A DNA stretch of 48,981 bases from a virus. The notes under the pieces are model-generated. The model had not been told where the DNA came from, made no database searches, and saw nothing but the letters and a program-made list of their open reading frames with translations. The DNA is taken from IMG/VR virus record IMGVR_UViG_3300025168_000136, positions 1 to 48,981 of that record; one strand, 5' to 3'. This document shows, piece by piece, positions 4,984 to 32,580 of the stretch. A program made the translations under genes and the position numbers. How positions within the stretch are numbered: position 1 is the stretch's first letter; each line of letters begins with the position of its first letter.

Positions 4984-7900
4984 ATGGCAGCGGACATACA
5001 GCAAATTCTTACCGCGTTACGAAATGCTGATGCGGTGGGGGATACAGAAGCTGCTACTCGGTTAGCCGAATTAGCTAAACAGTTCACTCCAGCTCCGCCT
5101 GTCGAAAGAGAAGTTGGTATAGGAGAAGCTGCGGGTATTGGCTTTGAGCGGGGTGTTGGCCGTTTTGGCTCTACAATTACAGACATCATCCCTGCCTTAG
5201 TGGGTAGCGCTGTAGGTGCAGACGAGTATGCAAAAGAACAACTTGAAGAAGCGGCTACTAAACAAGCTGCATTACCTGCGCCTGTATTCGAAAGCTATAA
5301 AGATGTAGAAGGTATAGGCGACGCTGCTAAATTTGTAGCTGAAACTATGGGGGAGCAAATCCCCAACATGGGCTTGGCACTTGGCACCGCGCTTACTGGC
5401 GGGGCAGCAGCACCGACACTCTTAGGTGGACGTGCACTAGCTACCAAAGCTGCTACCGAAATAGCTAAAAAAGAAGCTGCTAAGCTAGTAGCAAAGCAAG
5501 CAACAGCAGGGCAACTTGTAGGCGCGGGCCTCGGTTCGTATGTCCTGAACGCCCCTGAAGTATTCCAAAACATATTCCAAGAAACCGGAGAGCTTGCTCC
5601 CGCCACCGCCTTATTATTTGGAGCCGCCGCCGCTGCGCTAGACTCTGTTCTTCCTGTTGCTTTAGCTAGAAATATCTCAGCTCCTGTTAAAGCAGAGGCA
5701 GCGAAAAAACTTTTACTAAGATCAGGCATGAAACCAAGTATTTTACGTTCGGGTACTGTGGGTTTAGCTAAAGGTGTTGGTACAGAAGGCATTACTGAGG
5801 GTGCGCAAGAAGCTATTAGCATTGCAGCCGAGCGACTTATAGACGACAACCCTGATCTTTTTGGTGGTAAAGAATGGGATCGCATCATAGAGAGCAGTGT
5901 CCGTGGTGCCGTAGCTGGCGGTGGGTTTGGTACTATTGGTGGTAGCATAGAGGGTGCGCGAGAAAAAGCTGCTGCGAGGCAGGAACAAACTGCTGTTGAG
6001 CAACGCGAAAGGGAAGTTGCCGAAGAGCAGACAGTTTCACCTTCTGTAACGCCTGAAACCCCACCTAAAACCCCACCTAAAACCCCACCTGAAACTCCAC
6101 CTGAAACGTCGCCTGTAGTAAAAGAAATGAGCGCCCAGAGCGTTGCTCAAGATGTTGAAGACTTAACTCGTGAAGAGTTTGATGCTAAATACGAAGGGCT
6201 GTACAACTACGATGAGATTATGGATGCTGATGAGGGGCAGACAGTTTCACCTGTTGTTAAAGCCCCTGAGCTGTCTGATGCCGAGATTACTGCGGCAACG
6301 GCTGAAGGGTCTAGGGTTGTAGATAGAGCGAAGGAAAAAGAGCGTGAAGCAAAGGAAGTCGATCCAGAGATAGCTGTAATAATTCGTACCCAGAGGGAGC
6401 GGCGGAAAGCGTTTGAAAAACTAAAAAAAGAAAGCGAAGTAGTAGAAGCCGCAAAAACGTATGAGCAAGAAACAGACGAACGCATTGCAAAAGAAACAGA
6501 AGAGCGGCGGAAAGAGTTTGAAGACCTAAAAAACAAACCTACCCCTGCAACTACTCCTCCCCCGATTGCCCCTGCAACACCTACTGACACTGGAACAAAC
6601 GCAGTAGGAACCTTGCTGCTAGACGCGCCTGCAACATTTACTAACAGAAAAATGGCAGCAGCGGCAGAAACCTACGAAGCAGCAAACCAAAGGGTGATAG
6701 CCAAACCTAATGTGGTTAACAAGGGCAAGCTGGCAAAAGCTACTAAGGACTACAACGCAGCTATTAGGGAAGATAGAGAAGCGCAAGCGAAGGTGTACGA
6801 ATCCACACCAACAACAACCGTTGCTCCTATTGCACCTGCGGATAAACCCGTAACGACAACGGTAGCCAACACTGTAACGCCTGCTGTTGACCGCACAAAA
6901 CAAGTCTTTGAGGATAGGGACTTCACCACGCTGAAAGACGAAAAAAACCCAGCGAAGCAAAAGACAGAAAATGTAGGCCAAGGAGCATTCAGGCGAATAT
7001 TGGCGGGGGAGACAGCAGACTTTAGCAACCTTCCAGAAAGCGCATGGCGTGGACTGCCGATAGAGGTGAATGAAAAATCCCCTACTTGGTCAATCATGAA
7101 AGCCTTAAACACAGTGGCTTTTGCTAGTACGGGGCAGCGTGAGTTTAAAGGTAAAGAAAAGAGCATGTTGAAGGAGAAGACAGATGGCGAAAAAGCTGTC
7201 CAGTTCGTGCGTGAGAATTTCTCTCCTCAAGTCAACGCTTCCTTAGATGTCCTCATCGCCTCACAGCAAGAGATAGAGACTGAGCGTGTCAGGAAAGATA
7301 CGGGTGAAGAGGTCGCTGAGGATGAAGTAGTTGATGAGAATGCGCCCGCCCCTGTCATAGCTGAGCGGTTTAGGCCGGACACTAAGTCAAGCCCTGTCAA
7401 AGTCCTCTCTCCCAGCGCTGTAGCCAAAGTCAATAAGTCAAAGAAGGGTAAGGAACTAGCCGTTGAAGTAGGCCGTCAAACAAAGAACACCAAGCAGAAA
7501 GCTGTTTCTAAAAAAGCAGATGATGACTTTACCCGCGACCAGTTAGTCACTTTAGAACAGATCAATGACAACATTGAGGTAGAGATTTTTGAATCCGCTG
7601 AAGCCGAATCTAAAGCAACTGGCATACCCCTAGCAGACGTTAAGGAAGAATACAGGGCCAAGCAAAGGTTAAAGAAGCAAGAACTAGAAGCAATAGACAC
7701 CAGCAATCCTATTAATAGCGATGCGGAGAAAGTTAAAAACGCAGCAGCAGCTATCATAGAGATGCGCAACAAAACCTCGAAAGATAAGGAAACAGAAGCC
7801 GCAGCTAACGCAGCTTTTGACATTGCCTCGAAAAAACTCAAGGCCAGTGCAGTGCTGTCTGGCATGGGTACGGTTTCGGCAAAGGTAAACAACAAGCTGC

Positions 7901-10900
7901 TCGCTGGAGACATTGTTGGGGCACTTACACAGATAGCTTCTGACACAACCAACACTGACCTAGCTAAAGTTGCTAAGACACTTGCCCGAAGAATGAGTAA
8001 GGAAAGGACTAAACTTACACTAATCGATGGTCTTACTGATGCTGAAGGAGTGTTGTTGGCTGGTTCCTATGTTCACACGACACGGCAAATAAGCCTAAAC
8101 AACGCAGGGCCAATAAGCATACACGCTGTACTGCATGAGTCAGCACACGCTGCTACCCACGATGCTTTGATGAATAAGAGCGACCCTATCACGAAGAAAC
8201 TTACTAAGCTGTGGAAAGAAGCACAAAGTCTGATACCCGCTGAGTACGGTGTCACCTCCCTAGAGGAATTTGTTGCTGAGGCATTCACTAACCCAAGATT
8301 TCAAGCCATGCTTGCTTCATACAAGCCAGCGTCACAGCCCCTCTCTGCATGGCGCAGATTCATCAACGCCATATTCACACGTATTGGACTGCGTGGCGAA
8401 CCACTGTCAGCTAAAGATGAAGTCCTGACTCTCGCCAATTTCATCATGGGCAGCACTATAGATAACAGAAACGCTACCACAGTAAGGCAGTACCTCTCTG
8501 AAGGTAAGCCAGACCAAGCCCTGTTTGAAATGCGTAAAGGTGCCCGTTCTTTGAGTAAGGCTGGCATTAAAGACTCCAACATAGTACTCGCCTCGTGGGC
8601 GCGAACTGCTACCGCTAAGTCACGTGAGCAGGTTATGAACGCCGTCAGTATGAATCATTTGGTTGAGTGGGCGCAAAAAACTACGTTTGGCAAAGAAGCA
8701 ACAGAGCTACATGAACTTATCATCCAAGAAGATGGTGAACGCGGTAGGATGGCGGGAGAGGATGCTAAGCTAGCTGATATTTTACGTAATGCGTTTAAAG
8801 GGGATGTTGAAGCCCTTAACGCCTTTACTTTTATCGCTACTGAAGGCACAGACTTTGGTGTTGACGTAGCTAAACCGCTTAACACATACACGAAGTTTGG
8901 CTTGGCCTACTCCTTAGCTGATGGCACCCTTGTTGAAAACCGAAACTTCCCCAACCAGTTAGCCAGAGATGAAAAGTTAGCCGCGTTAAAGGCTGAAATA
9001 AAAGTAGTGAACGCCAAAGAAAAACCTGATAAAGGGGACTTGGTGATTGTAGGGGGAGTGCAGAAGCTAGAGCCATCCACAGAAAAGCAAATGAAGTGGA
9101 AAGAGCTAAGACCGCTGTGGGATAAGAAACTAAACAAGGAGCAGAAAAGCGCCTACATAACTCTGCGTGACCACTACACATCACGCCAGAAAGAAGTCCG
9201 TAAAGCTGTTGCTGCTCGTATGGATGCCCTCACTCAAGACGACTCAGTGCTAAGAAGGCAGATCAAAGACATCGTTTTTGAAAAGATAATGAAGAGCGGT
9301 AGCATTGACCCTTACTTCCCTTTTGATCGGCGCGGTCAGTTCTGGATAGGGTTCACATACGGAAAGGCTGAAGGCAAGGGAACTGAATACTACACCACAC
9401 CTTTCGAGTCGGAAGCAGCACGTGCGGTGGCTATGGATAGGCTACGTGAAGACCCCACTGTAGACCAAGATACTTTAGAAGAGATGTCTGCCGACAAAGT
9501 AGCGGCAATGAACGGCGCTGATATAAACAATGTCTCTACTAGTTTCGTACTGGAGATGACCAACGAAGTAGACAAAGTTAAGCTCCCTAAAGGTGAAGAA
9601 GGTTCTACAGAAGCTGACAGTTTTGCCAAGGTTGAGGAACTAAAACTTAAACTGCGAGAGCTATTGCTGCGCACATTGCCCCAACAGGGGCTTGTCCAGA
9701 CACAGAAGAAAAGGGCAGGGTTCAAGGGATATGAAGAGAACCCCATCATTGCCTTTCAGTCTCGCTCTAAATTAACCAATAATGCGTTTGTGAACCTGAA
9801 GTATGAAGTACAAATATCCAAGGTTGCTAAGGAGTTACGCCAAAAAGCCAAAGACGCTGAGTATGCCAATAATTCTATGGAGCGGTACTTATCTTTAGCC
9901 CTTGCTGGCACTAAGGCTGAAACAGACGCTACAGTGTTGAAGCTGCCTAGCTACGCAGAGTTTGCAAAGAACCCCTACATCTCCAAATTTGCGCGTAATG
10001 TACGAGCGGGTGTGTTCATGTTTACGCTTGGGGCTAACATATCTGCTCCTGTGGTGAACTTGTCGGTGCTTGGCTTGATAGTAAGCCCTCGACTACAGGC
10101 AGACTACGGGCCACTTAAAGGCTTAGCCGCGCTCAGGAAAGCTATAGGTGTCTATGGTAGTACCTTTGGAGATGTGGATTCAGAAGTGCTGCCTGACATG
10201 GAACAGGGAAGTGACGGCAACTACTTCGTTAAGGCGCGTAACTACGTTAAGAAGCGCGGTGGTTTCGGCATGGGTAACACTAAAGGCACTAAGCAGCACG
10301 CCGTTTTCAACCCGCTTACCCAGCGTATGGAGGACATAGGGCTAGACAACCGTACTATTTCACAGGACATGGCTGAATTTGATTCTCCCACTAGCGCAAT
10401 TCTACAAAAAGCTTCCTTCTATAGTGGCTTTATCTTCAACCACAGTGAGCGTGCGGCACGCCAGATAACTGCGTTGTCTGTGTATATTGGTGAGATGGAG
10501 GCTAAAACAGGCAAAAAAATTAAAGATGTGACTAAGGCAGAGGTGGAGCAGTATGGGGGAGATGCCGCAGTAAAAGCTACTATGATGATGGAAGAGCTTA
10601 ACGCTTCCGCCCTACAGACCACAGCCCCCAGACTTACACAGAACACTCTAGGTAGCCTAGTAGGCCAGTTCAAGCGGTTCCCAATGAACGTATTGACCAT
10701 CCAAACTAAGATGGCTGCAGCAGGGTATAGGGTAATGACCCTTAAAACGAGAGCGAAAGTACAAGCAGCAGAAGCGGCTATGGCTGAGGCTCAAACCACA
10801 GGGGACACAGCAGCTTACGATCAAGCAGAAGCCGACTTGGCTGCGGCTAAGGCCGAGGGAGCAGAAAACTTAAAGGCAGTCCAGAATTGGGGATACATGA

Positions 10901-11751
10901 CTGCCACTGGGTTCTTGTTGCTTGGGCCGAAGGGTGTCCCTGCCTACGGCATCTTCGCTATGATCTACAACGCATTTATTGCTGGTGATGAAGACGATGA
11001 CTTAAACACGGTGATCTCCAAGACACTATCTGAGGGTATGTACTTCGGGTTGTTTGCACGTATAACTGGCATGGATATTACTGACCGTGCGGCACTTACT
11101 AACCTTATGATAAGAGACTCCAGTAACTACGTGCCAGATAACAAGGTAGAGTTTTTAATGGACAGCTACCTCGGCCCTGCGTGGAGTGTAAGTAAACGAG
11201 CGGTTGAAGGTGGGTACGAAGCAATGTTTGATGAAAACCCTAGGAACAATAGGCGTGGGTGGGAGAAACTAGCCCCTGCCGGTTTTTCCAACATTCTCAA
11301 GGCGATTAGGTTTAGTGACGAAGGTTACAACACATCTCGCGGTGACACGATAGTTGGTGACCTGAGCCTAATGGACTTACTACGTCAGGCGTTAGGTTTT
11401 CGTCCCGTTAAGTTCAGTGCGGGCCAATCAGAGCTAGCTAGAAACTACCGTGTAACTCGTTCCCAGAGCAACAGGAAGTCGATCATACTGGATGATGCTT
11501 GGTACTTACAGGAAAATGCTAGGCGGGAAGGTCGTTCAATAAACCCTGATGAGTTGAGAAAGCTGCAGGAGGAGATAGTAGAGTTTAATGCCAAGTATCC
11601 AGCCGATGCAGTGACCTCCGCCACCTTAAAAGCTTCCTACAATACACGGGCAAGAAACTCGGCCATTGCAGCAATTACTGGGGGTATGGTAACTCCTAAG
11701 AAATACCTACGTGCAGTAATGGAGTCTAACGAAGAAGCCTTTAGGGCATAA
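4984..11751 (+). CDS. Giant (2255 aa) polyvalent internal-virion-like protein with zincin motif
   Basis: The longest gene of the window. The N-terminal 330 residues are Ala/Gly-rich with amphipathic or hydrophobic stretches. A proline repeat (PPKTPPKTPPETPP) lies near 357-374, followed by charged coiled regions to about 1000. A metalloprotease-like site follows: H1051-E1052-S-A-H1055, with a possible third ligand E1099 in EEFVAEAF, the HExxH...E arrangement of gluzincins. The C-terminal half has long mixed domains with no motif I can name and a hydrophobic segment near 1980-2005 (GFLLLGPKGVPAYGIFAMIY). Architecture and position after an SLT protein resemble ejected proteins such as T7 gp16 or phage 'large polyvalent proteins'; that comparison is inference. 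Injected proteolysis of a host target or self-processing is possible. Confidence 0.9.
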   Translation: MAADIQQILTALRNADAVGDTEAATRLAELAKQFTPAPPVEREVGIGEAAGIGFERGVGRFGSTITDIIPALVGSAVGADEYAKEQLEEAATKQAALPAPVFESYKDVEGIGDAAKFVAETMGEQIPNMGLALGTALTGGAAAPTLLGGRALATKAATEIAKKEAAKLVAKQATAGQLVGAGLGSYVLNAPEVFQNIFQETGELAPATALLFGAAAAALDSVLPVALARNISAPVKAEAAKKLLLRSGMKPSILRSGTVGLAKGVGTEGITEGAQEAISIAAERLIDDNPDLFGGKEWDRIIESSVRGAVAGGGFGTIGGSIEGAREKAAARQEQTAVEQREREVAEEQTVSPSVTPETPPKTPPKTPPETPPETSPVVKEMSAQSVAQDVEDLTREEFDAKYEGLYNYDEIMDADEGQTVSPVVKAPELSDAEITAATAEGSRVVDRAKEKEREAKEVDPEIAVIIRTQRERRKAFEKLKKESEVVEAAKTYEQETDERIAKETEERRKEFEDLKNKPTPATTPPPIAPATPTDTGTNAVGTLLLDAPATFTNRKMAAAAETYEAANQRVIAKPNVVNKGKLAKATKDYNAAIREDREAQAKVYESTPTTTVAPIAPADKPVTTTVANTVTPAVDRTKQVFEDRDFTTLKDEKNPAKQKTENVGQGAFRRILAGETADFSNLPESAWRGLPIEVNEKSPTWSIMKALNTVAFASTGQREFKGKEKSMLKEKTDGEKAVQFVRENFSPQVNASLDVLIASQQEIETERVRKDTGEEVAEDEVVDENAPAPVIAERFRPDTKSSPVKVLSPSAVAKVNKSKKGKELAVEVGRQTKNTKQKAVSKKADDDFTRDQLVTLEQINDNIEVEIFESAEAESKATGIPLADVKEEYRAKQRLKKQELEAIDTSNPINSDAEKVKNAAAAIIEMRNKTSKDKETEAAANAAFDIASKKLKASAVLSGMGTVSAKVNNKLLAGDIVGALTQIASDTTNTDLAKVAKTLARRMSKERTKLTLIDGLTDAEGVLLAGSYVHTTRQISLNNAGPISIHAVLHESAHAATHDALMNKSDPITKKLTKLWKEAQSLIPAEYGVTSLEEFVAEAFTNPRFQAMLASYKPASQPLSAWRRFINAIFTRIGLRGEPLSAKDEVLTLANFIMGSTIDNRNATTVRQYLSEGKPDQALFEMRKGARSLSKAGIKDSNIVLASWARTATAKSREQVMNAVSMNHLVEWAQKTTFGKEATELHELIIQEDGERGRMAGEDAKLADILRNAFKGDVEALNAFTFIATEGTDFGVDVAKPLNTYTKFGLAYSLADGTLVENRNFPNQLARDEKLAALKAEIKVVNAKEKPDKGDLVIVGGVQKLEPSTEKQMKWKELRPLWDKKLNKEQKSAYITLRDHYTSRQKEVRKAVAARMDALTQDDSVLRRQIKDIVFEKIMKSGSIDPYFPFDRRGQFWIGFTYGKAEGKGTEYYTTPFESEAARAVAMDRLREDPTVDQDTLEEMSADKVAAMNGADINNVSTSFVLEMTNEVDKVKLPKGEEGSTEADSFAKVEELKLKLRELLLRTLPQQGLVQTQKKRAGFKGYEENPIIAFQSRSKLTNNAFVNLKYEVQISKVAKELRQKAKDAEYANNSMERYLSLALAGTKAETDATVLKLPSYAEFAKNPYISKFARNVRAGVFMFTLGANISAPVVNLSVLGLIVSPRLQADYGPLKGLAALRKAIGVYGSTFGDVDSEVLPDMEQGSDGNYFVKARNYVKKRGGFGMGNTKGTKQHAVFNPLTQRMEDIGLDNRTISQDMAEFDSPTSAILQKASFYSGFIFNHSERAARQITALSVYIGEMEAKTGKKIKDVTKAEVEQYGGDAAVKATMMMEELNASALQTTAPRLTQNTLGSLVGQFKRFPMNVLTIQTKMAAAGYRVMTLKTRAKVQAAEAAMAEAQTTGDTAAYDQAEADLAAAKAEGAENLKAVQNWGYMTATGFLLLGPKGVPAYGIFAMIYNAFIAGDEDDDLNTVISKTLSEGMYFGLFARITGMDITDRAALTNLMIRDSSNYVPDNKVEFLMDSYLGPAWSVSKRAVEGGYEAMFDENPRNNRRGWEKLAPAGFSNILKAIRFSDEGYNTSRGDTIVGDLSLMDLLRQALGFRPVKFSAGQSELARNYRVTRSQSNRKSIILDDAWYLQENARREGRSINPDELRKLQEEIVEFNAKYPADAVTSATLKASYNTRARNSAIAAITGGMVTPKKYLRAVMESNEEAFRA

Positions 11752-24168: not shown

Positions 24169-24460
24169 CGGTCTCCTCTCCCTTATCATTAGCGAAAATC
24201 CAGAAAGTGTCTTTAGATATGCGCCTGCCCACGCCTGTTATGTACTCAGTTGGTGGCTCGTAACTACGCATATCCAATACAGCGATACGTTCCTGTACCC
24301 ATACGGGTAAATCTTTAAGTAAAATCCCTAGTGTTTTTTCTGGCATTCCAGCAATCATCGGTTTACCAAAACAATATACATCTGCTTTGTCCCCAGTAAT
24401 ACTTACGCGGAATATATCAGAATCTTTTGGCGCGTCTCCCCACACACTAGCCATTACCAT
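24140..24460 (-). CDS. Unknown conserved-type phage protein, 106 aa
   Basis: Begins MVMASVWGDAPKDSDIFRVSI; a small alpha/beta protein with VYCFGKPMIAG and GVGRRISKDTFWIF segments and an acidic, Thr/Gly-rich tail. From memory, similar sequences occur in other uncultured phages without a function. The start is either 24460 or 24454, the latter as a TAATG overlap with the previous gene. Placed between a nuclease and an unknown gene. Confidence 0.7.
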   Translation of the reverse strand: MVMASVWGDAPKDSDIFRVSITGDKADVYCFGKPMIAGMPEKTLGILLKDLPVWVQERIAVLDMRSYEPPTEYITGVGRRISKDTFWIFANDKGEETDGNDTGKES

Positions 24461-24933
24461 ACCGCCGTGCGTGCCATAAGGTCAGCGAGACATTCATCAG
24501 ACACAAACACAAACTGATTCTCTACAAACGCTGTATCGTTTTCTTCGTGCTTGCCACCTACCCCTGCTATGTATCGGAAAGAACCATTTTTTGATAGCCC
24601 ACTCGTTGATGCCATGTGGAGTGTAGCTAGCTTTTGTTTAATCTCTATTGGAACGCCCGTACCTTCTATGCCAAACTTCAGCGTCTTGTGTTGCGGCAAT
24701 ACTACATAGATAGCCTGATTGCTTGGTGTAACTACGATATTAATCGGGGTCATTCGGCCTTGCTTTTGTGCTGCTGTGGAACCGTTAACCAAGTCTTCCG
24801 CTCTCCCCACGTAGTCGGAATACGCATTCTGTAGGGATTCAGGGAGGGCATGTTTGTTGAACACCTCACCTCTCTGCGCTGCGTCTATCATGCTAATTAC
24901 AGTGGCGAGGTTTTTTGAATTGTCATAGGCCAT
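24454..24933 (-). CDS. Unknown protein, 159 aa
   Basis: N-terminal helical region (NLATVISMIDAAQRGEVFN), then two beta-rich stretches (INIVVTPSNQAIYVVLPQ and FRYIAGVGGKHEENDTAFV). No motif or transmembrane segment. There is no clear ribosome-binding site near the ATG. A tiny frame upstream (24934-24989) has nothing convincing. Function unknown. Confidence 0.7.
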   Translation of the reverse strand: MAYDNSKNLATVISMIDAAQRGEVFNKHALPESLQNAYSDYVGRAEDLVNGSTAAQKQGRMTPINIVVTPSNQAIYVVLPQHKTLKFGIEGTGVPIEIKQKLATLHMASTSGLSKNGSFRYIAGVGGKHEENDTAFVENQFVFVSDECLADLMARTAVW

Positions 24934-24989
24934 GTCGTAGCGAAAACATTCTTTCCTAACTGTATTTAGTTCTTCCTCGTAATGGTTGC

Positions 24990-25523
24990 CTATGGATTTA
25001 ATGGCTGGGTTTTAGATAGGGACACTAGCACTTCAACAAGTTCTCTGTCGTAGAACGGCCTCAGCTTTGCGAATACTTCAGCAATGCGCTTGATGTTTTT
25101 AGACACTACTACTTTGTCCGACTCGCGGCTGCTAAACGGCTGCTTTGTGACGTTCTTGTCTCGCATAATACGCGGCGATACGATGGTGAATATGCCATCG
25201 TCCATCGGGTTATCGTAGTTGTCTGCTTTAGTGCGAAGTTGTATTAATGCTGTGTAGAAACAACTCTTTGCATGTCGTACGCCTACTCGCTCCCCGTATA
25301 TAGTGCATCTTTCGAGTACCTCAAACAGGCACTCTTCGGTAGTTGTTCTTTGTAGCGCACGCAGTAAGTCCTGCATTTTAAGGGATAAGGTTTCTAGGTT
25401 CTGGTCTACCTTCTCTGACCTTTCCTTGTTCTTCAAAGAAACAGTATTTGTTATTTGGTAGCCCCAATCACCTGCTACGTAGTTGCGCTCTTGGTCTAGT
25501 GTTCTGTTGAATTGTATAGCCAT
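24990..25523 (-). CDS. Unknown protein, 177 aa
   Basis: The ATG at 25523 is chosen because AAGGAG lies seven bases upstream, at the end of the preceding gene; the longer frame would absorb that site. Mostly helical: ERSEKVDQNLETLSLKMQDL, then a Cys-containing stretch (EECLFEVLERCTIYGERV), then a basic C-terminal half. No family recognised. Confidence 0.7.
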   Translation of the reverse strand: MAIQFNRTLDQERNYVAGDWGYQITNTVSLKNKERSEKVDQNLETLSLKMQDLLRALQRTTTEECLFEVLERCTIYGERVGVRHAKSCFYTALIQLRTKADNYDNPMDDGIFTIVSPRIMRDKNVTKQPFSSRESDKVVVSKNIKRIAEVFAKLRPFYDRELVEVLVSLSKTQPLNP

Positions 25524-25524
25524 G

Positions 25525-26058
25525 CTATTGCTCCTTCCATGCGTTAACTTGGTGACAGTTGAATTCATTGTCGCGCCACATATCTACTACACACTGGCGG
25601 TCATCGAGTATGACCAACACGTCCCTAGGTCTTAGCCCTAGCTCTTGCATCATCTCTAGCTTGACGATGGTGTCAGCTCTGCGGTCATTCTTCTTGCGCA
25701 TAAACAATCTCAGCCCTACCGAGTAAGGATTCTCAGTCCAAATAGCAGGCGTGTTTAGGTTAACGTGTTTACATATCCACGCTATCGTTTCTTCGCGCAC
25801 CTCTTCATTGCGTCCTGAGAAGAAGTACACCTCCCGCTCTTCACCTCCCGCGAGGGATTCCAAAGCCATGATGTTGCGCGTGATTGGCAGGTCATCGGTA
25901 CAAGTCTTGTGGAACGAATCCCAATCCGCGTCCTTGTACTTCTTCTTCGTACCATCGGCATTCTTGATGAAGTGCAGCCGGTGCGTTAGGTCAGCTATTG
26001 TCCCGTCTAGGTCACATATCACTGTTGAGTACTGCCTTACTTTAATGATCTTATCCAT
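25525..26058 (-). CDS. HAD-family 3'-phosphatase (PNK phosphatase-domain-like)
   Basis: 177 residues from ATG 26058, preceded by AGGAG at eight bases. HAD motif I ICDLDGT with D16/D18, motif II in FFSGRNEE, a lysine in DTIVKLEMM, and motif IV LDDRQCVVDMW with D152/D153. The arrangement resembles the 3'-phosphatase half of T4 polynucleotide kinase, which clears 3'-phosphates from nicked RNA or DNA ends. The kinase half is absent. Starting upstream would translate a leader containing the hairpin and the ribosome-binding site, which is implausible. Confidence 0.85.
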   Translation of the reverse strand: MDKIIKVRQYSTVICDLDGTIADLTHRLHFIKNADGTKKKYKDADWDSFHKTCTDDLPITRNIMALESLAGGEEREVYFFSGRNEEVREETIAWICKHVNLNTPAIWTENPYSVGLRLFMRKKNDRRADTIVKLEMMQELGLRPRDVLVILDDRQCVVDMWRDNEFNCHQVNAWKEQ

Positions 26059-26100
26059 CGGTCGTTCTCCTGCGGCTGTGCCGCTGTTGTCGATACCAGT
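26059..26100 (-). promoter_or_regulatory. Leader with ACTGGTATCG motif, GCGGC hairpin and AGGAG
   Basis: Coding strand order: ACTGGTATCG (26091-26100), a hairpin GCGGC-ACA-GCCGC, AGGAGAACG, then the phosphatase ATG. A 24-base block covering hairpin and ribosome-binding site recurs unchanged at 29668-29691 before the 340-residue protein gene, and a variant precedes the XRE-type gene. The stem lies one base from AGGAG, so it can influence ribosome access. Confidence 0.6.
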
Positions 26101-26107
26101 CATCCAG

Positions 26108-27409
26108 TTAGTTGAACTTTACGTGAGCGTACTTGCCTACGTCCGGTCGTGTGCTTGGTGTGTTGTCGCTAGTGATTAGCCATAGTACCGGCTTATCCCA
26201 CTTGCCCCAGTCGCCGCCAAGGTATCCGTCTGTCAATACCACTACTGCTTGCGCTTCGATCTTCTTCTCTTTCATGTACTCGGTTAGGCAAGAGATACGT
26301 GTACCTCCTGTGCTACGTGGCTTCATAGACTCGACCATAGTTTCTATCGGCTTGCCTCCAAGGCCATACAGCTCGTCACCACCTATGGATGTGCCCCAGT
26401 AGATAATCCGTATTGTCGTAGGTGAAGTAGTCTCTGCAATCTGTTTAGCTATCGACAGAAACTTAGTCATCTCCGCCGCGCTCATACAGCTACCGGACGT
26501 GTCTATCCCAAACACTAGCTCACCTACTTTCTCAGAGATGCCGCTAGGCGCAAGCAGACCCATCGCTAACTTCCTACGGTTGGGTCGTCGCCATGTCGCG
26601 TCATCTTTACCTACACAAGTCTGTGTAACAAACTCATGCAACAGTTCCTTGGGGTCTATCTTAGGTTTCAACAGCTTGTCTATGCTTAGCAGTCCACCTA
26701 CGCCACCGGCCTTACCTGCTGTGATAACACCCTGACGTACTGCACGTTCTATCTCGGCATCGAGTGCGCGTTTCTCAGGCTCACTCATTTCCTTGGCATC
26801 CTCCCAGTCATGCTCGTCAAAACCTTGCGGCTTATCACCTGACTCGCCATCACCTGACTCACCCTCACCTGACTCACCATCACCTGACTCACCCTCGCCA
26901 TCACCTGACTCGCCACCTGACTTGCCCCCCTTCCTCTTCTCCTCTTCCTTCTTCTCATACAGATCATTGAATATCTGCGCGGTGTCCATGCCACGGTACT
27001 TCTCATCTACTAGCCCTGCGTACTCGCCGGTAGGCATCACAGCAAACCCGTCATCCTTGTTCTCATCATTGAGCATCAAGTTGGTGTAGTAGTCTGCTGC
27101 CTTGTTAGCACACTCGGCATCTATCTCGAACAAGTGTGCCCATGTGGTGAGGTGTCTGTGTAGCTTGTGCCCCTCCACTTCATGCAGTACCAAGTACCGC
27201 AGGTTTTTCTCGGTGATCGCGTTGATCATCGTTTCGCCGTACACTTCGTCACGCCCGTTAGTGCGTGCTGTTGGTGTATTCGGGCACGTCTTGCGTGTCC
27301 CTATCATCATCACACCAGCCAGTGCTATGTAACGCTTGTGTGCCATGATGTCGGTCACTGCTCTGTCTAGCCGCTGCTGTGGTGTTAGCTCTGTGTTAAC
27401 TAATAACAT
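26108..27409 (-). CDS. VWA-domain protein (CobT/ViaA-like partner of a MoxR ATPase)
   Basis: 433 residues. N-terminal putative metallopeptidase-type domain with LHEVEGHKLHRH (H76, E77, H81, H84), which departs from the usual HExxH spacing. A long Gly/Ser/Asp/Glu repeat linker (about 165-193, GDGESG units) follows, then a helical region and a C-terminal von Willebrand A domain. The VWA metal site is D303-T-S305-G-S307, with TDGY at 393-396. The acidic linker plus VWA layout is that of CobT-like proteins, which work with CobS/MoxR AAA+ ATPases. The neighbouring gene is such an ATPase, so the two probably form a metal-insertion or remodelling complex. The actual substrate is unknown. Confidence 0.85.
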   Translation of the reverse strand: MLLVNTELTPQQRLDRAVTDIMAHKRYIALAGVMMIGTRKTCPNTPTARTNGRDEVYGETMINAITEKNLRYLVLHEVEGHKLHRHLTTWAHLFEIDAECANKAADYYTNLMLNDENKDDGFAVMPTGEYAGLVDEKYRGMDTAQIFNDLYEKKEEEKRKGGKSGGESGDGEGESGDGESGEGESGDGESGDKPQGFDEHDWEDAKEMSEPEKRALDAEIERAVRQGVITAGKAGGVGGLLSIDKLLKPKIDPKELLHEFVTQTCVGKDDATWRRPNRRKLAMGLLAPSGISEKVGELVFGIDTSGSCMSAAEMTKFLSIAKQIAETTSPTTIRIIYWGTSIGGDELYGLGGKPIETMVESMKPRSTGGTRISCLTEYMKEKKIEAQAVVVLTDGYLGGDWGKWDKPVLWLITSDNTPSTRPDVGKYAHVKFN

Positions 27410-27422
27410 TGTCTGTCTCCCT

Positions 27423-28559
27423 TTATCGTACTGTTGAGAACATGTGGTTATTCTTCAGTGCCCACGCTTGGTAGTCCTTGTTCTGCCCAACCTTGTCCAT
27501 CCTGCTGTATCCCTTCACACGTGTGCCGTTGCCGAAGACACCTTGTGCTTCACTGGGAAGTCTCTGTAGGTAAGTCATCCACTGAGATGCCCAGTCACGT
27601 TCAATCGTAGCCAGTGTGCGGTACACCACCATCATTGTCGCTGACGCATCAGTTGGCACTATCGCGGTAAGCGGGTCGGCCTTGATAGAGTCAGTTGTTG
27701 GTAGTTGGTCAGCTAACTGAACGTAAGTGGCTAGGTTCAGTGTGGCTTCAAGGCCAATCGTCCCCGCTAGTGAGGCGGTCAGTGCTAGGGCAGATATGTC
27801 AGCACGTCTGTCTATGATACGGCTTGCCTTGTCGAGTGAACGTAGAGTTACCTTGGCTTCGTCACGGGTTGCTGCGTTGGGGTGAGGTATTAGCGGGTTC
27901 TCCTCTGGGTTGTCGTACATTTCAGCACTGTGGAACGCTTGCGGCGTTTCTTTGCACCATTGCAATACTAGTGGGTTGATAGGTGGGTTAGCTATGTTAA
28001 CCCCGTACTCGATGTACTCTAAGTTGTCAGCACCGCGCATCTCTACTACGGTCATCCTGTTTCTCAGGTGCGGAGGGATGTTGTCCCCAAGTCCTTCTGA
28101 GGTCAGGTTAGTTGTGCAGAACATCACTGTCTCTGCGTGGGCCTTGAACCCACCACCGATACGCTCACTTACTAGCCTAGCTAATGATAGCTTCACAGAG
28201 TTAGGTGCTTTACCTAGCTCGTCTATCATTATGATGCAGGGTACGTTGAGGTGCATCCCTAGCTCTTCGTGCGGTATGGTCACGAAGGTCTTGCCATCAT
28301 CTGAATACTTAATCATAAACAGATCGCCGCTGTCGGCCTTGGTGTTGCAGTCTATGTATATCAGTCTGTGGTTCTTATACTTCGGACGCTTGCCTAGTAG
28401 CCCAAGCAGGGCTGACTTGCCTATGCCCATCTGTCCTTGAACAAGCACACAGATTGCCGTCCCCATCACTTCAATAAGGTTAGCCATCTCAAGCATACCT
28501 AATGCGCGTGAACCTGCCTTTACGTTTGTTGCGGGTACTGCATTTGTTAATGTACTCAT
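27423..28559 (-). CDS. MoxR/CobS-like AAA+ ATPase
   Basis: 378 residues from ATG 28559 with GGAG six bases upstream. Walker A GQMGIGKSA (42-50, K48), Walker B IIMIDELGKA (D113/E114), sensor-1 region FCTTNLT with N151, and arginine-finger candidates R166/R168 (HLRNRMT). This is the MoxR class, whose hexamers act with VWA proteins (RavA-ViaA, CobS-CobT, NorQ-NorD pairs). The VWA gene follows after 13 bases, supporting a functional pair. The C-terminal third is helical and unrecognised. Confidence 0.9.
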   Translation of the reverse strand: MSTLTNAVPATNVKAGSRALGMLEMANLIEVMGTAICVLVQGQMGIGKSALLGLLGKRPKYKNHRLIYIDCNTKADSGDLFMIKYSDDGKTFVTIPHEELGMHLNVPCIIMIDELGKAPNSVKLSLARLVSERIGGGFKAHAETVMFCTTNLTSEGLGDNIPPHLRNRMTVVEMRGADNLEYIEYGVNIANPPINPLVLQWCKETPQAFHSAEMYDNPEENPLIPHPNAATRDEAKVTLRSLDKASRIIDRRADISALALTASLAGTIGLEATLNLATYVQLADQLPTTDSIKADPLTAIVPTDASATMMVVYRTLATIERDWASQWMTYLQRLPSEAQGVFGNGTRVKGYSRMDKVGQNKDYQAWALKNNHMFSTVR

Positions 28560-28642
28560 GTCGTTCTCCAATTGTGGTGTTGCGTTTACTTAGGTTAAGT
28601 TTAGTTTGTTTCAGTTAAGTTGTCTAGTTCTTAGACCATGCG

Positions 28643-29659
28643 TTACCAACCTAGGCTAGTAACTTGCTCGGTTGTGACTTCCTTCAGTTCCCCGGTAGGT
28701 TGAGTTTGTGATGTGTCCTGAGTTGTTGGTGTATCCTGTGGCTCAATGCCCTTGATGATCTCGTCCACCTTGCCCTTCACCTTGTCGCGCATGGTGTCGG
28801 ATGCTTTCAGCCCATCGTAGGTCACGCCAGTCAGTGCGTTTTTGAGGTCACGGCGTACCTGTTCCATCTTCGGGTCGTTGGCTATGTTGCACATCTTCAT
28901 CAGATCAACTATCTGTGTCACGTTGTCCACTAGTGTGCCCTTGAAGTATCCGTTGCGCGGCTTACCTGTCGCATCGTCATAGTCCAGTTTCTCAGACATG
29001 TTCTTCAGAGGTGCAAGAAGACGTTTCCATATATCGTCCATCATGTCTTTCATGCGGGCATCTTTAGTTGCGGTCACAGTGTCCACTATCACTTGGTGTC
29101 CCTGAGCCTCTACGTTGGTGATGAAGTTACTGTCTCCCCCTGCTAAGTAGTCAAGGTCTAACCGTATCTTGAATTTATCCATCAGCGTCTCTACGTCAGG
29201 ATAGTCTGCGGCGTTGAACATCTTACCCAGCCCCACGTAGTGCTGCTTGGCATACTCCACCTCTTGCGGATAGCTGATTCGAAACTGTTCTTTGAGTACA
29301 TCAAACTGTTTGAAGAAGCCTGTCATGGTGTTCTGATAGTCAATCATCAGGGGATTAGGTAGGAGTCTTTCGCCCAGTTCACCCCACGGCACTGTGCTGG
29401 CTGTGTGGTAGTCGCGTATCTTACCTTCCAAGGATTTGATCGCGGCGTGTATCGAAGAAGACAGTAGCTTCTTTGTGTACGTGCCTGAGTCCTTCGCGGC
29501 CTCGTTGTCTTGCTGTACCGCAAGGGTTGCGGCCTTGTCCTTCTTGCGTAATGTCGGCACGCTGATTGATAGGGATACCTTCATAGCAGAAGACGCTAGT
29601 GTAGGTGCGTGATGAATCGGCTCAAGGTTGTCGGCTGTTGCTTGGTTTTCGTAGTTCAT
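28643..29659 (-). CDS. Unknown helical protein, 338 aa, in the AAA+/VWA module
   Basis: The ATG at 29659 is used because AGGAG is seven bases upstream; the earlier in-frame ATG (29665) is too close to it. Largely helical, with WGELGERLLPNPLMIDYQ, a conserved-looking centre (DKFKIRLDLDYLAGGDSNF), a Lys-rich late region and a Thr/Gln/Pro-rich tail (TPTTQDTSQTQPTGEL). No domain recognised. Placed directly before the AAA+ gene (about 80 bases apart), so a likely third component or substrate of the ATPase-VWA complex. This is inference from gene order. Confidence 0.75.
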   Translation of the reverse strand: MNYENQATADNLEPIHHAPTLASSAMKVSLSISVPTLRKKDKAATLAVQQDNEAAKDSGTYTKKLLSSSIHAAIKSLEGKIRDYHTASTVPWGELGERLLPNPLMIDYQNTMTGFFKQFDVLKEQFRISYPQEVEYAKQHYVGLGKMFNAADYPDVETLMDKFKIRLDLDYLAGGDSNFITNVEAQGHQVIVDTVTATKDARMKDMMDDIWKRLLAPLKNMSEKLDYDDATGKPRNGYFKGTLVDNVTQIVDLMKMCNIANDPKMEQVRRDLKNALTGVTYDGLKASDTMRDKVKGKVDEIIKGIEPQDTPTTQDTSQTQPTGELKEVTTEQVTSLGW

Positions 29660-29661
29660 CT

Positions 29662-29976
29662 TCATTCTCCTGCGGCTGTGCCGCTGTTGGTGGTTCGGGG
29701 TGCTACAGTAAGTTCCTCGTACTCTGCTAGTAGATCACTCAAGGTGGCAGGCATTTTTTCGCGCAGGGTTTCTAGTGCCGCTAGCTGCTGCGTTGTGCTG
29801 TTTACGTTCCAATGCTTGCGTGCTTTGGCGTGCTTCACTTCGTGCTTGACTATGCGTTTAACTACAGACTCCTGTGTGTTGCAGTCTAGGTTGTATTGTT
29901 GCTGCACCACGTAGGTAATGCCTGCTTCGTATGCCCTGTCTAGTGCCGCTTTGAATTGCTGTTTACTAATCTTCAT
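29662..29976 (-). CDS. Small unknown protein, 104 aa, first gene of the AAA+/VWA operon
   Basis: Starts at ATG 29976 (CAGGAG six bases upstream). Helical with basic stretches (AGITYVVQQQYNLDCN, VKRIVKHEVKHAKARKHW). Its last residues are encoded by the same 24-base block that serves elsewhere as an untranslated hairpin and ribosome-binding site: here that block is coding and also primes the next gene. No family recognised. Confidence 0.7.
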   Translation of the reverse strand: MKISKQQFKAALDRAYEAGITYVVQQQYNLDCNTQESVVKRIVKHEVKHAKARKHWNVNSTTQQLAALETLREKMPATLSDLLAEYEELTVAPRTTNSGTAAGE

Positions 29977-29997
29977 ATCGTTCTCCTGTGCCGTTTT

Positions 29998-30015
29998 CAT
30001 GGTGGGTTCACCATG
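29998..30015. repeat. Palindromic element, copy A
   Basis: CATGGTG-GGTT-CACCATG, a perfect 7-base stem followed by GATTTTGGTT. It lies in the 5' leader of the AAA+/VWA operon. Related copies lie at 31055-31081, 31143-31169 and 32548-32580, always outside genes. Compared with those copies the loop is inverted (GGTT instead of AACC). Confidence 0.7.
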
Positions 30016-30085
30016 GATTTTGGTTAGGCCGTATGGCCGTTGCTGCTGTGCTGCTGTTTGCTACTTAATCTCCAACTGAACAGCT

Positions 30086-30114
30086 ATTATCTCATATTTG
30101 ACGGGTTGCGTCAA
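30086..30114 (-). promoter_or_regulatory. Sigma-70-like promoter with overlapping operator-like repeat
   Basis: Minus strand: TTGACG, a 17-base spacer, GATAAT; five of six matches to consensus in each hexamer. The -35 box lies inside a perfect inverted repeat TTTGACG-n5-CGTCAAA (30097-30115), a natural place for a repressor or activator to act. The inferred start near 30079 would drive genes from 29976 leftward. Confidence 0.65.
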
Positions 30115-31054: not shown

Positions 31055-31081
31055 ATGGTGAACCCACCATGGATTTTGGTT
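31055..31081. repeat. Palindromic element, copy B
   Basis: ATGGTGAACCCACCAT (6-base stem, AACC loop) followed by GG and ATTTTGGTT. A half copy (GGTGGTGAACCC) lies just upstream. Identical core to copy C. Confidence 0.75.
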
Positions 31082-31104
31082 AGCGTTGTTATGAAATGGA
31101 TGCC

Positions 31105-31276
31105 GCAGACAGCGTGTATGTTACTGGTATCGGCCTGAAACGATGGTGAACCCACCATGGATTTTGGTTGACCATGGGATGATGCCCTGACGCAGACAGC
31201 GAGAATACGACTGGTATCGGCCTGACGCGGTGACTGGATAGCGCAGACAGCGTGAACATTACTGGTATCGAACTGC
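31105..31276 (+). repeat. Three 34-base direct repeats (iterons or phage promoters)
   Basis: Copies at 31105-31138, 31192-31225 and 31243-31276 share GCAGACAGCG, then about eight variable bases, then ACTGGTATCG; the first two also share GCCTGA. All three point the same way. Spacing is uneven (87 and 51 bases), so they are not simple tandem repeats. The second copy reads AATACGACTGGTATCGG, close to a T7-class promoter start. The ACTGGTATCG half also occurs in leaders at 23002 and 26091 on the other strand. Confidence 0.8.
31143..31169. repeat. Palindromic element, copy C
   Basis: Same ATGGTGAACCCACCAT hairpin plus GG and ATTTTGGTT as copy B, located between the first and second 34-base repeats. 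Confidence 0.75.
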
Positions 31277-31293
31277 ACAAATTGCAGGCAAAA

Positions 31294-32547: not shown

Positions 32548-32580
32548 ATGGTGAACCGACCATGAATTTTGGTTCACCAT
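32548..32580. repeat. Palindromic element, copy D (long-arm variant)
   Basis: ATGGTGAACC and GGTTCACCAT form a perfect 10-base inverted repeat with a 13-base centre that includes ATTTT. It is a rearranged form of the elements at 29998, 31055 and 31143. Possible operator. Confidence 0.75.

Follow-up and report, generated by a model that had tools for sequence, protein, structure and literature searches.

The window analysed here is the whole of IMG/VR virus record IMGVR_UViG_3300025168_000136 (48,981 bases). Between positions 26108 and 30000 its minus strand carries four consecutive open reading frames (ORFs), the last three of which, in reading direction, encode a DUF3150-family protein, an AAA+ ATPase and a protein with a VWA domain. 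The initial annotation had rightly described the four genes as co-directional. The first (29662-30000) encodes a small protein of 112 residues and overlaps by 4 nucleotides the gene of the mostly helical DUF3150-family protein of 338-340 residues (28643-29665), the third component of the cassette. After a gap of 71 nucleotides comes the gene of the putative motor subunit, an ATPase of 378-382 residues assigned to the MoxR/midasin (helix-2-insert) clade from profiles and an AlphaFold2 model (27423-28571). A further 13 nucleotides separate it from the gene of a 433-residue protein that combines a metallopeptidase-like domain with a VWA domain (DUF2201_N and DUF2201; 26108-27409), hereafter the VWA protein. 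In the small gene, the start at Met9 (position 29976, giving 104 residues) has a better ribosome-binding site than the 112-residue start, and the same holds for the internal ATG at Met3 of the 340-residue ORF (338 residues). The ATPase ORF begins with TTG; because GGAG precedes an ATG four codons inside it, the 378-residue form is the likelier one.

Conservation of the cassette among related phages

Scans of IMG/VR returned 163 relatives of the DUF3150 type and at least 412 of the ATPase type. The best 80 of each were kept, and the statements on co-conservation refer to the clade that they represent. ATPase loci were counted as informative when they offered at least 1.5 kb of upstream sequence for the DUF3150 count, or at least 2.5 kb of downstream sequence for the VWA count. 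The DUF3150 gene adjoins the ATPase gene in all 63 informative viral loci: it lies directly upstream in 60 of them according to our script, in one more where the ATPase ORF is over-extended, and downstream in the remaining two. The VWA gene lies downstream of the ATPase gene in 60/60 informative loci, which bears out the initial pairing of the ATPase, a member of the MoxR/midasin clade, with a VWA partner. The arrangement most often seen among 121 distinct loci starts with a terminase gene on the opposite strand and continues with DUF3150, ATPase and VWA, followed in turn by two conserved genes unmatched in Pfam, a small conserved gene, a VRR-type nuclease gene and a DNA polymerase gene. The nearest relatives by terminase, phage 023Pt_psg01 and Pelagibacter phage HTVC027P, lack DUF3150.

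We then compared the protein distances over 52 loci. Mantel coefficients among the DUF3150, ATPase and VWA proteins were r = 0.75-0.86, against 0.48-0.57 with the terminase, and partial coefficients of 0.66-0.80 were left among the three proteins after removal of the terminase distance; the permutations leave shared ancestry in, and tight linkage contributes to the correlation. Taken with the gene counts, these values make it very probable that DUF3150, ATPase and VWA form a three-gene unit; throughout this large clade of phages their order hardly varies.

The small gene behaves differently. We found a homologue, 56% identical, in a single other contig (3300031659_000270; loci L009/L098), and none in the remaining viral loci examined. 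That contig shows the four genes side by side and in one direction, like the window, and breaks off within the ATPase gene. The initial annotation had proposed a system of all four genes, to be judged by their co-occurrence in phage genomes. The 340-residue gene is co-conserved (63/63) but the 104/112-residue gene, a non-conserved member of the neighbourhood, is not; the four-gene idea thus fails and a three-gene cassette stands.

Features of the encoded proteins

The ATPase matches phrog_1297, labelled 'ATPase', with an E-value of 1.4e-32 (PHROGs), and its sole Pfam signal is a match to AAA_5 just under the cut-off. The iterated ATPase profile of the clade matches gp24 of phage N4 at 1.5e-88. 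The protein has a Walker A motif GQMGIGKS (residues 46-53; 28413-28436, minus strand), a Walker B motif IIMIDE, a sensor-1 residue N155, the arginine-finger candidates R170 and R172 and a sensor-2 residue R244. G46, G49, K52, D117, E118, N155 and R244 are invariant across 76 relatives and R172 is nearly so, in agreement with the intact catalytic motifs first reported for this gene.

An AlphaFold2 model built from these 76 relatives has a mean predicted local distance difference test score (pLDDT) of 88.8. Two of its strands, 85-89 and 96-100, form a helix-2 hairpin (85-100) that comes after strand 69-74 and before the Walker-B strand 112-117; a short pre-sensor-1 hairpin lies around residues 138-143, ahead of the sensor-1 strand 149-155. 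On this model, the two hairpins assign the ATPase to the helix-2-insert AAA+ clade (MoxR/chelatase/midasin-dynein). The top solved structures in a Foldseek search were NorQ, NorQ-NorD complexes and CbbQ. NorQ superimposes with a Z-score of 13.4 and a root-mean-square deviation of 3.9 Å over 218 residues; dynein and midasin are close to it, the Z-scores of the three lying within about 1.5. Unlike the Foldseek ranking, a sequence profile search favours midasin (1.2e-42). Residues beyond about 290 form a helical C-terminal extension that is scarcely covered by structural or profile matches.

The VWA protein scores well above the Pfam cut-offs for DUF2201_N, described as a 'putative metallopeptidase' (1.7e-20; 74.2 bits against 23.2), and above that for the VWA-like DUF2201 (9.3e-7; 29.5 bits against 26.4). 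It also matches phrog_1314 at 6.5e-67, and the profile of its family matches N4 gp25 at 3.4e-93. The metal ion-dependent adhesion site (MIDAS) of the VWA domain is intact, as initially annotated: its DTSGS motif (residues 303-307; 26489-26503, minus strand), T370 and D394 are invariant in an alignment with 10 relatives, and the DxSxS form is found in 110/110 relatives. An acidic, low-complexity linker with GESGDGE repeats (residues ~151-205; 26795-26959, minus strand; 20 of 55 residues Asp or Glu) joins the two domains. The linker had been recognized at the outset, while the metallopeptidase-like domain on its N-terminal side had been overlooked. The initial comparison of the protein with CobT is not supported: DUF2201_N and DUF2201 are the only Pfam models matched at E ≤ 1.

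Among 110 distinct relatives, 109 carry the zincin motif HExxH in the metallopeptidase-like domain. In the window the motif reads HEVEGH, with one inserted residue (27167-27184, minus strand), and this HExxxH form is limited to the window and to the near-identical contig L001, which is 99.97% identical to it over 9.4 kb. L001 shares the HEVEGH letters despite other differences from the window, which makes a chance sequencing error improbable, with the reservation that the L001 assembly is possibly non-independent. As judged from the motif, the inserted residue probably abolishes zinc binding and peptidase activity, and a peptidase activity of the protein of this phage is therefore doubtful. 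The protein nonetheless remains a member of the DUF2201 family by its sequence.

The 'HNH endonuclease' label attached to phrog_1314 and to RefSeq records of gp25 and its relatives is not borne out by Pfam, which detects DUF2201_N and DUF2201 and no HNH domain. For N4 gp25 (L179:11164-12306) these matches reach 3.1e-87 and 1.4e-46, respectively. A genuine HNH gene lies between the ATPase and VWA genes of phage SBP1 and is a possible source of the label.

The 340-residue protein has no convincing match among Pfam, PHROG or NCBIfam models. Its family was traced through relatives. DUF3150 (PF11348) was matched in Pfam at E < 1 by 5 of 12 aligned family members, the best at 1.1e-4, and the member from locus L022 reaches 28.1 bits against a curated cut-off of 24.9. 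The window protein itself gives a tblastn match of 3e-15 to a protein of Synechococcus phage MinM2 annotated as DUF3150. Its homologue from locus L017 matches proteins of plasmids with E-values as low as 5e-41, among them one annotated as DUF3150 at 8e-24. When the model of the protein was searched with Foldseek, BFVD yielded a DUF3150 structure (8e-15) whose whole-chain template modelling score was low (0.40-0.46). Through this chain of homology the protein belongs to the DUF3150 family and is not the 'orphan partner' of the initial annotation. A fold search of the PDB with the DUF3150 model (pLDDT 69.9) gave nothing at E ≤ 0.001, which does not imply a novel fold. In contig 3300031659_000270, the closest other contig bearing DUF3150, the gene is split across two frames (L009:6860-7976).

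Distribution beyond the phage clade

ATPases of this type with a nearby VWA gene of the same family occur in N4, VBP47, SBP1, nACB1 and the jumbo phage Atu_ph07. Searches of the whole records of N4, three other schitoviruses and Atu_ph07 found no DUF3150. In MinM2 the triad lies close together with small genes in between. A tree of 21 ATPases sets the phage clade of the window as a separate group (support 0.97), apart from those of Schitoviridae and Burkholderiales plasmids.

A genome-collection scan with the phage DUF3150 alignment gave no matches, whereas a scan with plasmid members did find some. The triad is contiguous in 41 of 53 bacterial DUF3150 loci. It is so on Cupriavidus and Paraburkholderia plasmids, while in Simplicispira the ATPase gene is 3.6 kb away. 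The order on Burkholderiales plasmids is ATPase-DUF3150-VWA, with a VWA protein of the same DUF2201 class. ORF101-103 of plasmid pCAR1 represent a remote version, ATPase-DUF3150-NorD-annotated protein: the ATPase matches the phage profile at only 3.8e-6 and the VWA protein does not match its profile. Genes for a single-stranded DNA-binding protein (SSB), RecT and an exonuclease lie near the pCAR1 cassette. Conservation of pCAR1 ORF100-103 in Rts1, R478, SXT and R391 was described in 2009 (PMC2642839). In Rts1 we found the order SSB-RecT-exonuclease-unknown-MoxR-DUF3150-unknown-IS2-VWA; the IS2 element sits where the annotated VWA gene begins, between that gene and DUF3150 (L241:14790-17192). 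A study of conjugation by Rts1 lists 32 genes that transfer requires and names bet and exo; the MoxR, DUF3150 and VWA genes are not among the transfer genes that it names, a statement that does not extend to a gene-by-gene comparison with its full list (PMC10838148).

Ten distant DUF3150 loci lack the phage-type ATPase and VWA genes. In one of them (L235:3957-13324), Pfam identifies near the DUF3150 gene another AAA ATPase, DUF1257, RadC, SSB, a PD-(D/E)XK nuclease and a UvrD helicase. Like neighbourhoods, including a SWIM protein, are seen in deltaproteobacterial and Bacteroidota loci (L235, L228, L231 and L233), as judged by Pfam for L235 and by eye for the others.

Genomic surroundings

The cassette is co-oriented with replication genes and lies upstream of them. 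A gene for a polynucleotide-kinase-type 3'-phosphatase (25525-26103, minus strand; HAD_PNKP, 1.6e-23) begins only 4 nucleotides past the VWA gene, and the co-oriented run therefore extends beyond it. Further downstream on the same strand are genes for a VRR-type endonuclease, DNA polymerase A, an exonuclease, a helicase and a DUF927 primase-like protein. The structural genes, terminase and portal among them, occupy the plus strand and run counter to the cassette. Some relatives (L012, L013 and L017) have the phosphatase homologue upstream of DUF3150.

A sigma-70-like promoter match, TTGACG-17-GATAAT with a TG element (30086-30114, minus strand), is situated 86 nucleotides upstream of the small gene. 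The single promoter of the initial annotation thus does exist as a consensus match, but sites of this type are no more frequent in the region than by chance (5 observed against 8.5 expected in shuffled sequences). A partly palindromic intergenic element, ATGGTGAACCCACCATGGATTTTGGTT, is present in four copies (29999-30027, 31055-31083, 31143-31171 and 32548-32576) that surround a gene-poor stretch upstream of the cassette, and a second repeat family occupies 31101-31283. In the region 24454-25568 (minus strand), a 2-nucleotide difference at about 25010 splits a 370-residue gene of L001 into window ORFs of 192 and 159 residues, reflecting either a true frameshift or an assembly error. In the virion-protein region, a 2255-residue protein (4984-11751, plus strand) has no PHROG match at E ≤ 0.001.

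Discussion

The pairing of a MoxR ATPase with a metallopeptidase-VWA protein has precedents in N4-like phages and in jumbo phages, and there are published ternary MoxR-vWA systems in which the third component is a different one. In N4, gp24 and gp25 are middle genes (PMC4193335), and both are listed among the core genes of Schitoviridae (PMC7650795). They are homologous to the ATPase and VWA protein of the window, have the same domain make-up and are neighbours in the same order, upstream of a DNA helicase and a polymerase. The N4 ATPase differs in sharing only about 20% identity with that of the window and in belonging to a separate clade; DUF3150 is also missing from the N4 record, as from the three other schitoviruses searched. 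A MoxR AAA+/metallopeptidase-vWA pair was reported by Iyer et al. 2021 in group 2.2 jumbo phages (PMC7824862). In the jumbo phage Atu_ph07, the homologous adjacent genes have the same order and their products match the profiles of the window's clade; the differences are the lack of a detectable DUF3150 and the proposal of the pair as a virion-assembly system. The Burkholderiales and pCAR1/Rts1 plasmid modules have the same three components side by side, with the ATPase gene first, whereas DUF3150 comes first in the phage clade; pCAR1 further differs by its NorD-annotated VWA protein and remote ATPase.

MoxR-vWA-centric ternary conflict systems have VMAP, iSTAND, FtsH or beta-propeller third components (PMC7159879). 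The phage cassette shares their logic of a MoxR ATPase, a vWA co-chaperone and, in most cases, one dedicated third component; it differs in that this component is DUF3150, that no effector domain was recognized and that it is borne by phages and plasmids. NorQ-NorD, an AAA+ hexamer with a VWA/MIDAS partner, provides the closest solved structures, at about 16% identity between NorQ and the window ATPase and with a partial fold overlap (residues 25-285). In contrast to NorQ-NorD, the phage cassette has additional C-terminal helices in its ATPase and a zincin-like domain at the N-terminus of the VWA partner, and no nitric oxide reductase was recognized. In NorQD, ATP hydrolysis has been proposed to rotate the hexamer-docked VWA domain and stretch its linker (PMC13036017).

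We propose that the cassette encodes an ATP-driven remodelling machine whose client is a replication or recombination protein, and give this whole account a probability of about 0.45. Protein remodelling of the MoxR-VWA type would in itself be very likely, by analogy with the known systems. Following the precedents of NorQD, RavA-ViaA and midasin, the ATPase would form a hexamer on which the VWA domain docks, the MIDAS metal would grip the client by an acidic residue, and hydrolysis of ATP would twist or pull it. The DUF3150 protein may act as a dedicated adaptor that recruits the machine to its client, and gene neighbourhoods suggest that this client would be a replication or recombination protein on phage or plasmid DNA. 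In most relatives the zincin-like domain might cleave the client as well; with the insertion in HEVEGH, the machine of this phage would probably be left with remodelling only. The nature of the client is suggested by the replication genes of the phages, by the plasmid cassettes, some of which lie beside SSB, RecT and exonuclease genes, and by the repair genes at the distant bacterial locus. More tentatively, DUF3150 might define, as client adaptor, a hitherto undescribed ternary class of phage and plasmid MoxR-VWA systems that remodels single-stranded DNA or recombination complexes, and that is fixed in the clade and has lost its peptidase in one phage.

Several points weigh against this proposal. 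Early and middle regions also hold host-takeover genes, and gene order alone is no proof of function. The lack of detectable DUF3150 in N4, the three schitoviruses and Atu_ph07 indicates that the ATPase/VWA pair can work without it. Because the pCAR1 ATPase is remote and its VWA protein of an unrelated type, the recombination context of that plasmid may not transfer to the phages, and tight linkage may account for part of the co-variation of the three proteins. Some virion proteins of an N4-like roseophage are encoded near the gp24/gp25 homologues, which would suit a role in assembly (PMC4193335). The same adjacency supports the main rival reading, a virion-assembly chaperone, in which a MoxR-VWA machine folds, assembles or proteolytically processes virion proteins. 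Assembly with peptidolytic processing is what was proposed for the jumbo-phage pair (PMC7824862), and a like role has been deduced for the archaeal virus ATV from interaction studies, in which the MoxR protein p618 binds the VWA protein p892 and virion proteins (PMC4124505). We nevertheless regard this function as unlikely for the window, where the cassette shares a strand with the replication genes and faces away from the terminase, portal and structural genes, and where the peptidase motif is broken; moreover, the same triad occurs on plasmids, which have no virion.

The location on the early/replication side would also suit a host-takeover or counter-defence machine, which early in infection would remodel or inactivate one of the targets put forward in the initial annotation, a host complex or a defence protein. 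Phages and plasmids, which share the cassette, both face host defences, and conflict systems include other ternary systems of the MoxR-vWA kind (PMC7159879). None of seven proteins searched against PADLOC matched a family at E ≤ 0.01, a weak argument since PADLOC lists defence rather than counter-defence. Counter-defence genes tend towards variability, whereas the cassette is fixed in the clade, and its neighbours in phages, plasmids and the distant bacterial locus point to DNA metabolism; such a function thus appears rather improbable. Metal insertion, or a chelatase of the cobalamin type as the names CobS and CobT would imply, seems very improbable: NorQ-NorD, which matches the ATPase best in structure, does insert iron into nitric oxide reductase, but Pfam gives no CobT match, the CobS structure is a weak match (E = 0.67) and no metalloenzyme was recognized among the adjacent genes examined. 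A functional system that includes the small gene has the contiguity and co-direction seen in two contigs in its favour, but can hardly be reconciled with the lack of a homologue in the other viral loci.

DUF3150 is not found by name in the open-licence PubMed Central literature, and neither its role as a fixed third component of the cassette nor its link to plasmid recombination modules was found described there, so that we provisionally regard both as new. N4 gp24 and gp25 belong to the core gene set of an entire phage family and have no known role. Tying this pair to a co-inherited DUF3150 and to plasmid SSB/RecT/exonuclease modules provides a concrete idea for that role, the remodelling of DNA-processing complexes, and the pairs with and without DUF3150, or with and without the peptidase motif, offer a natural comparison.

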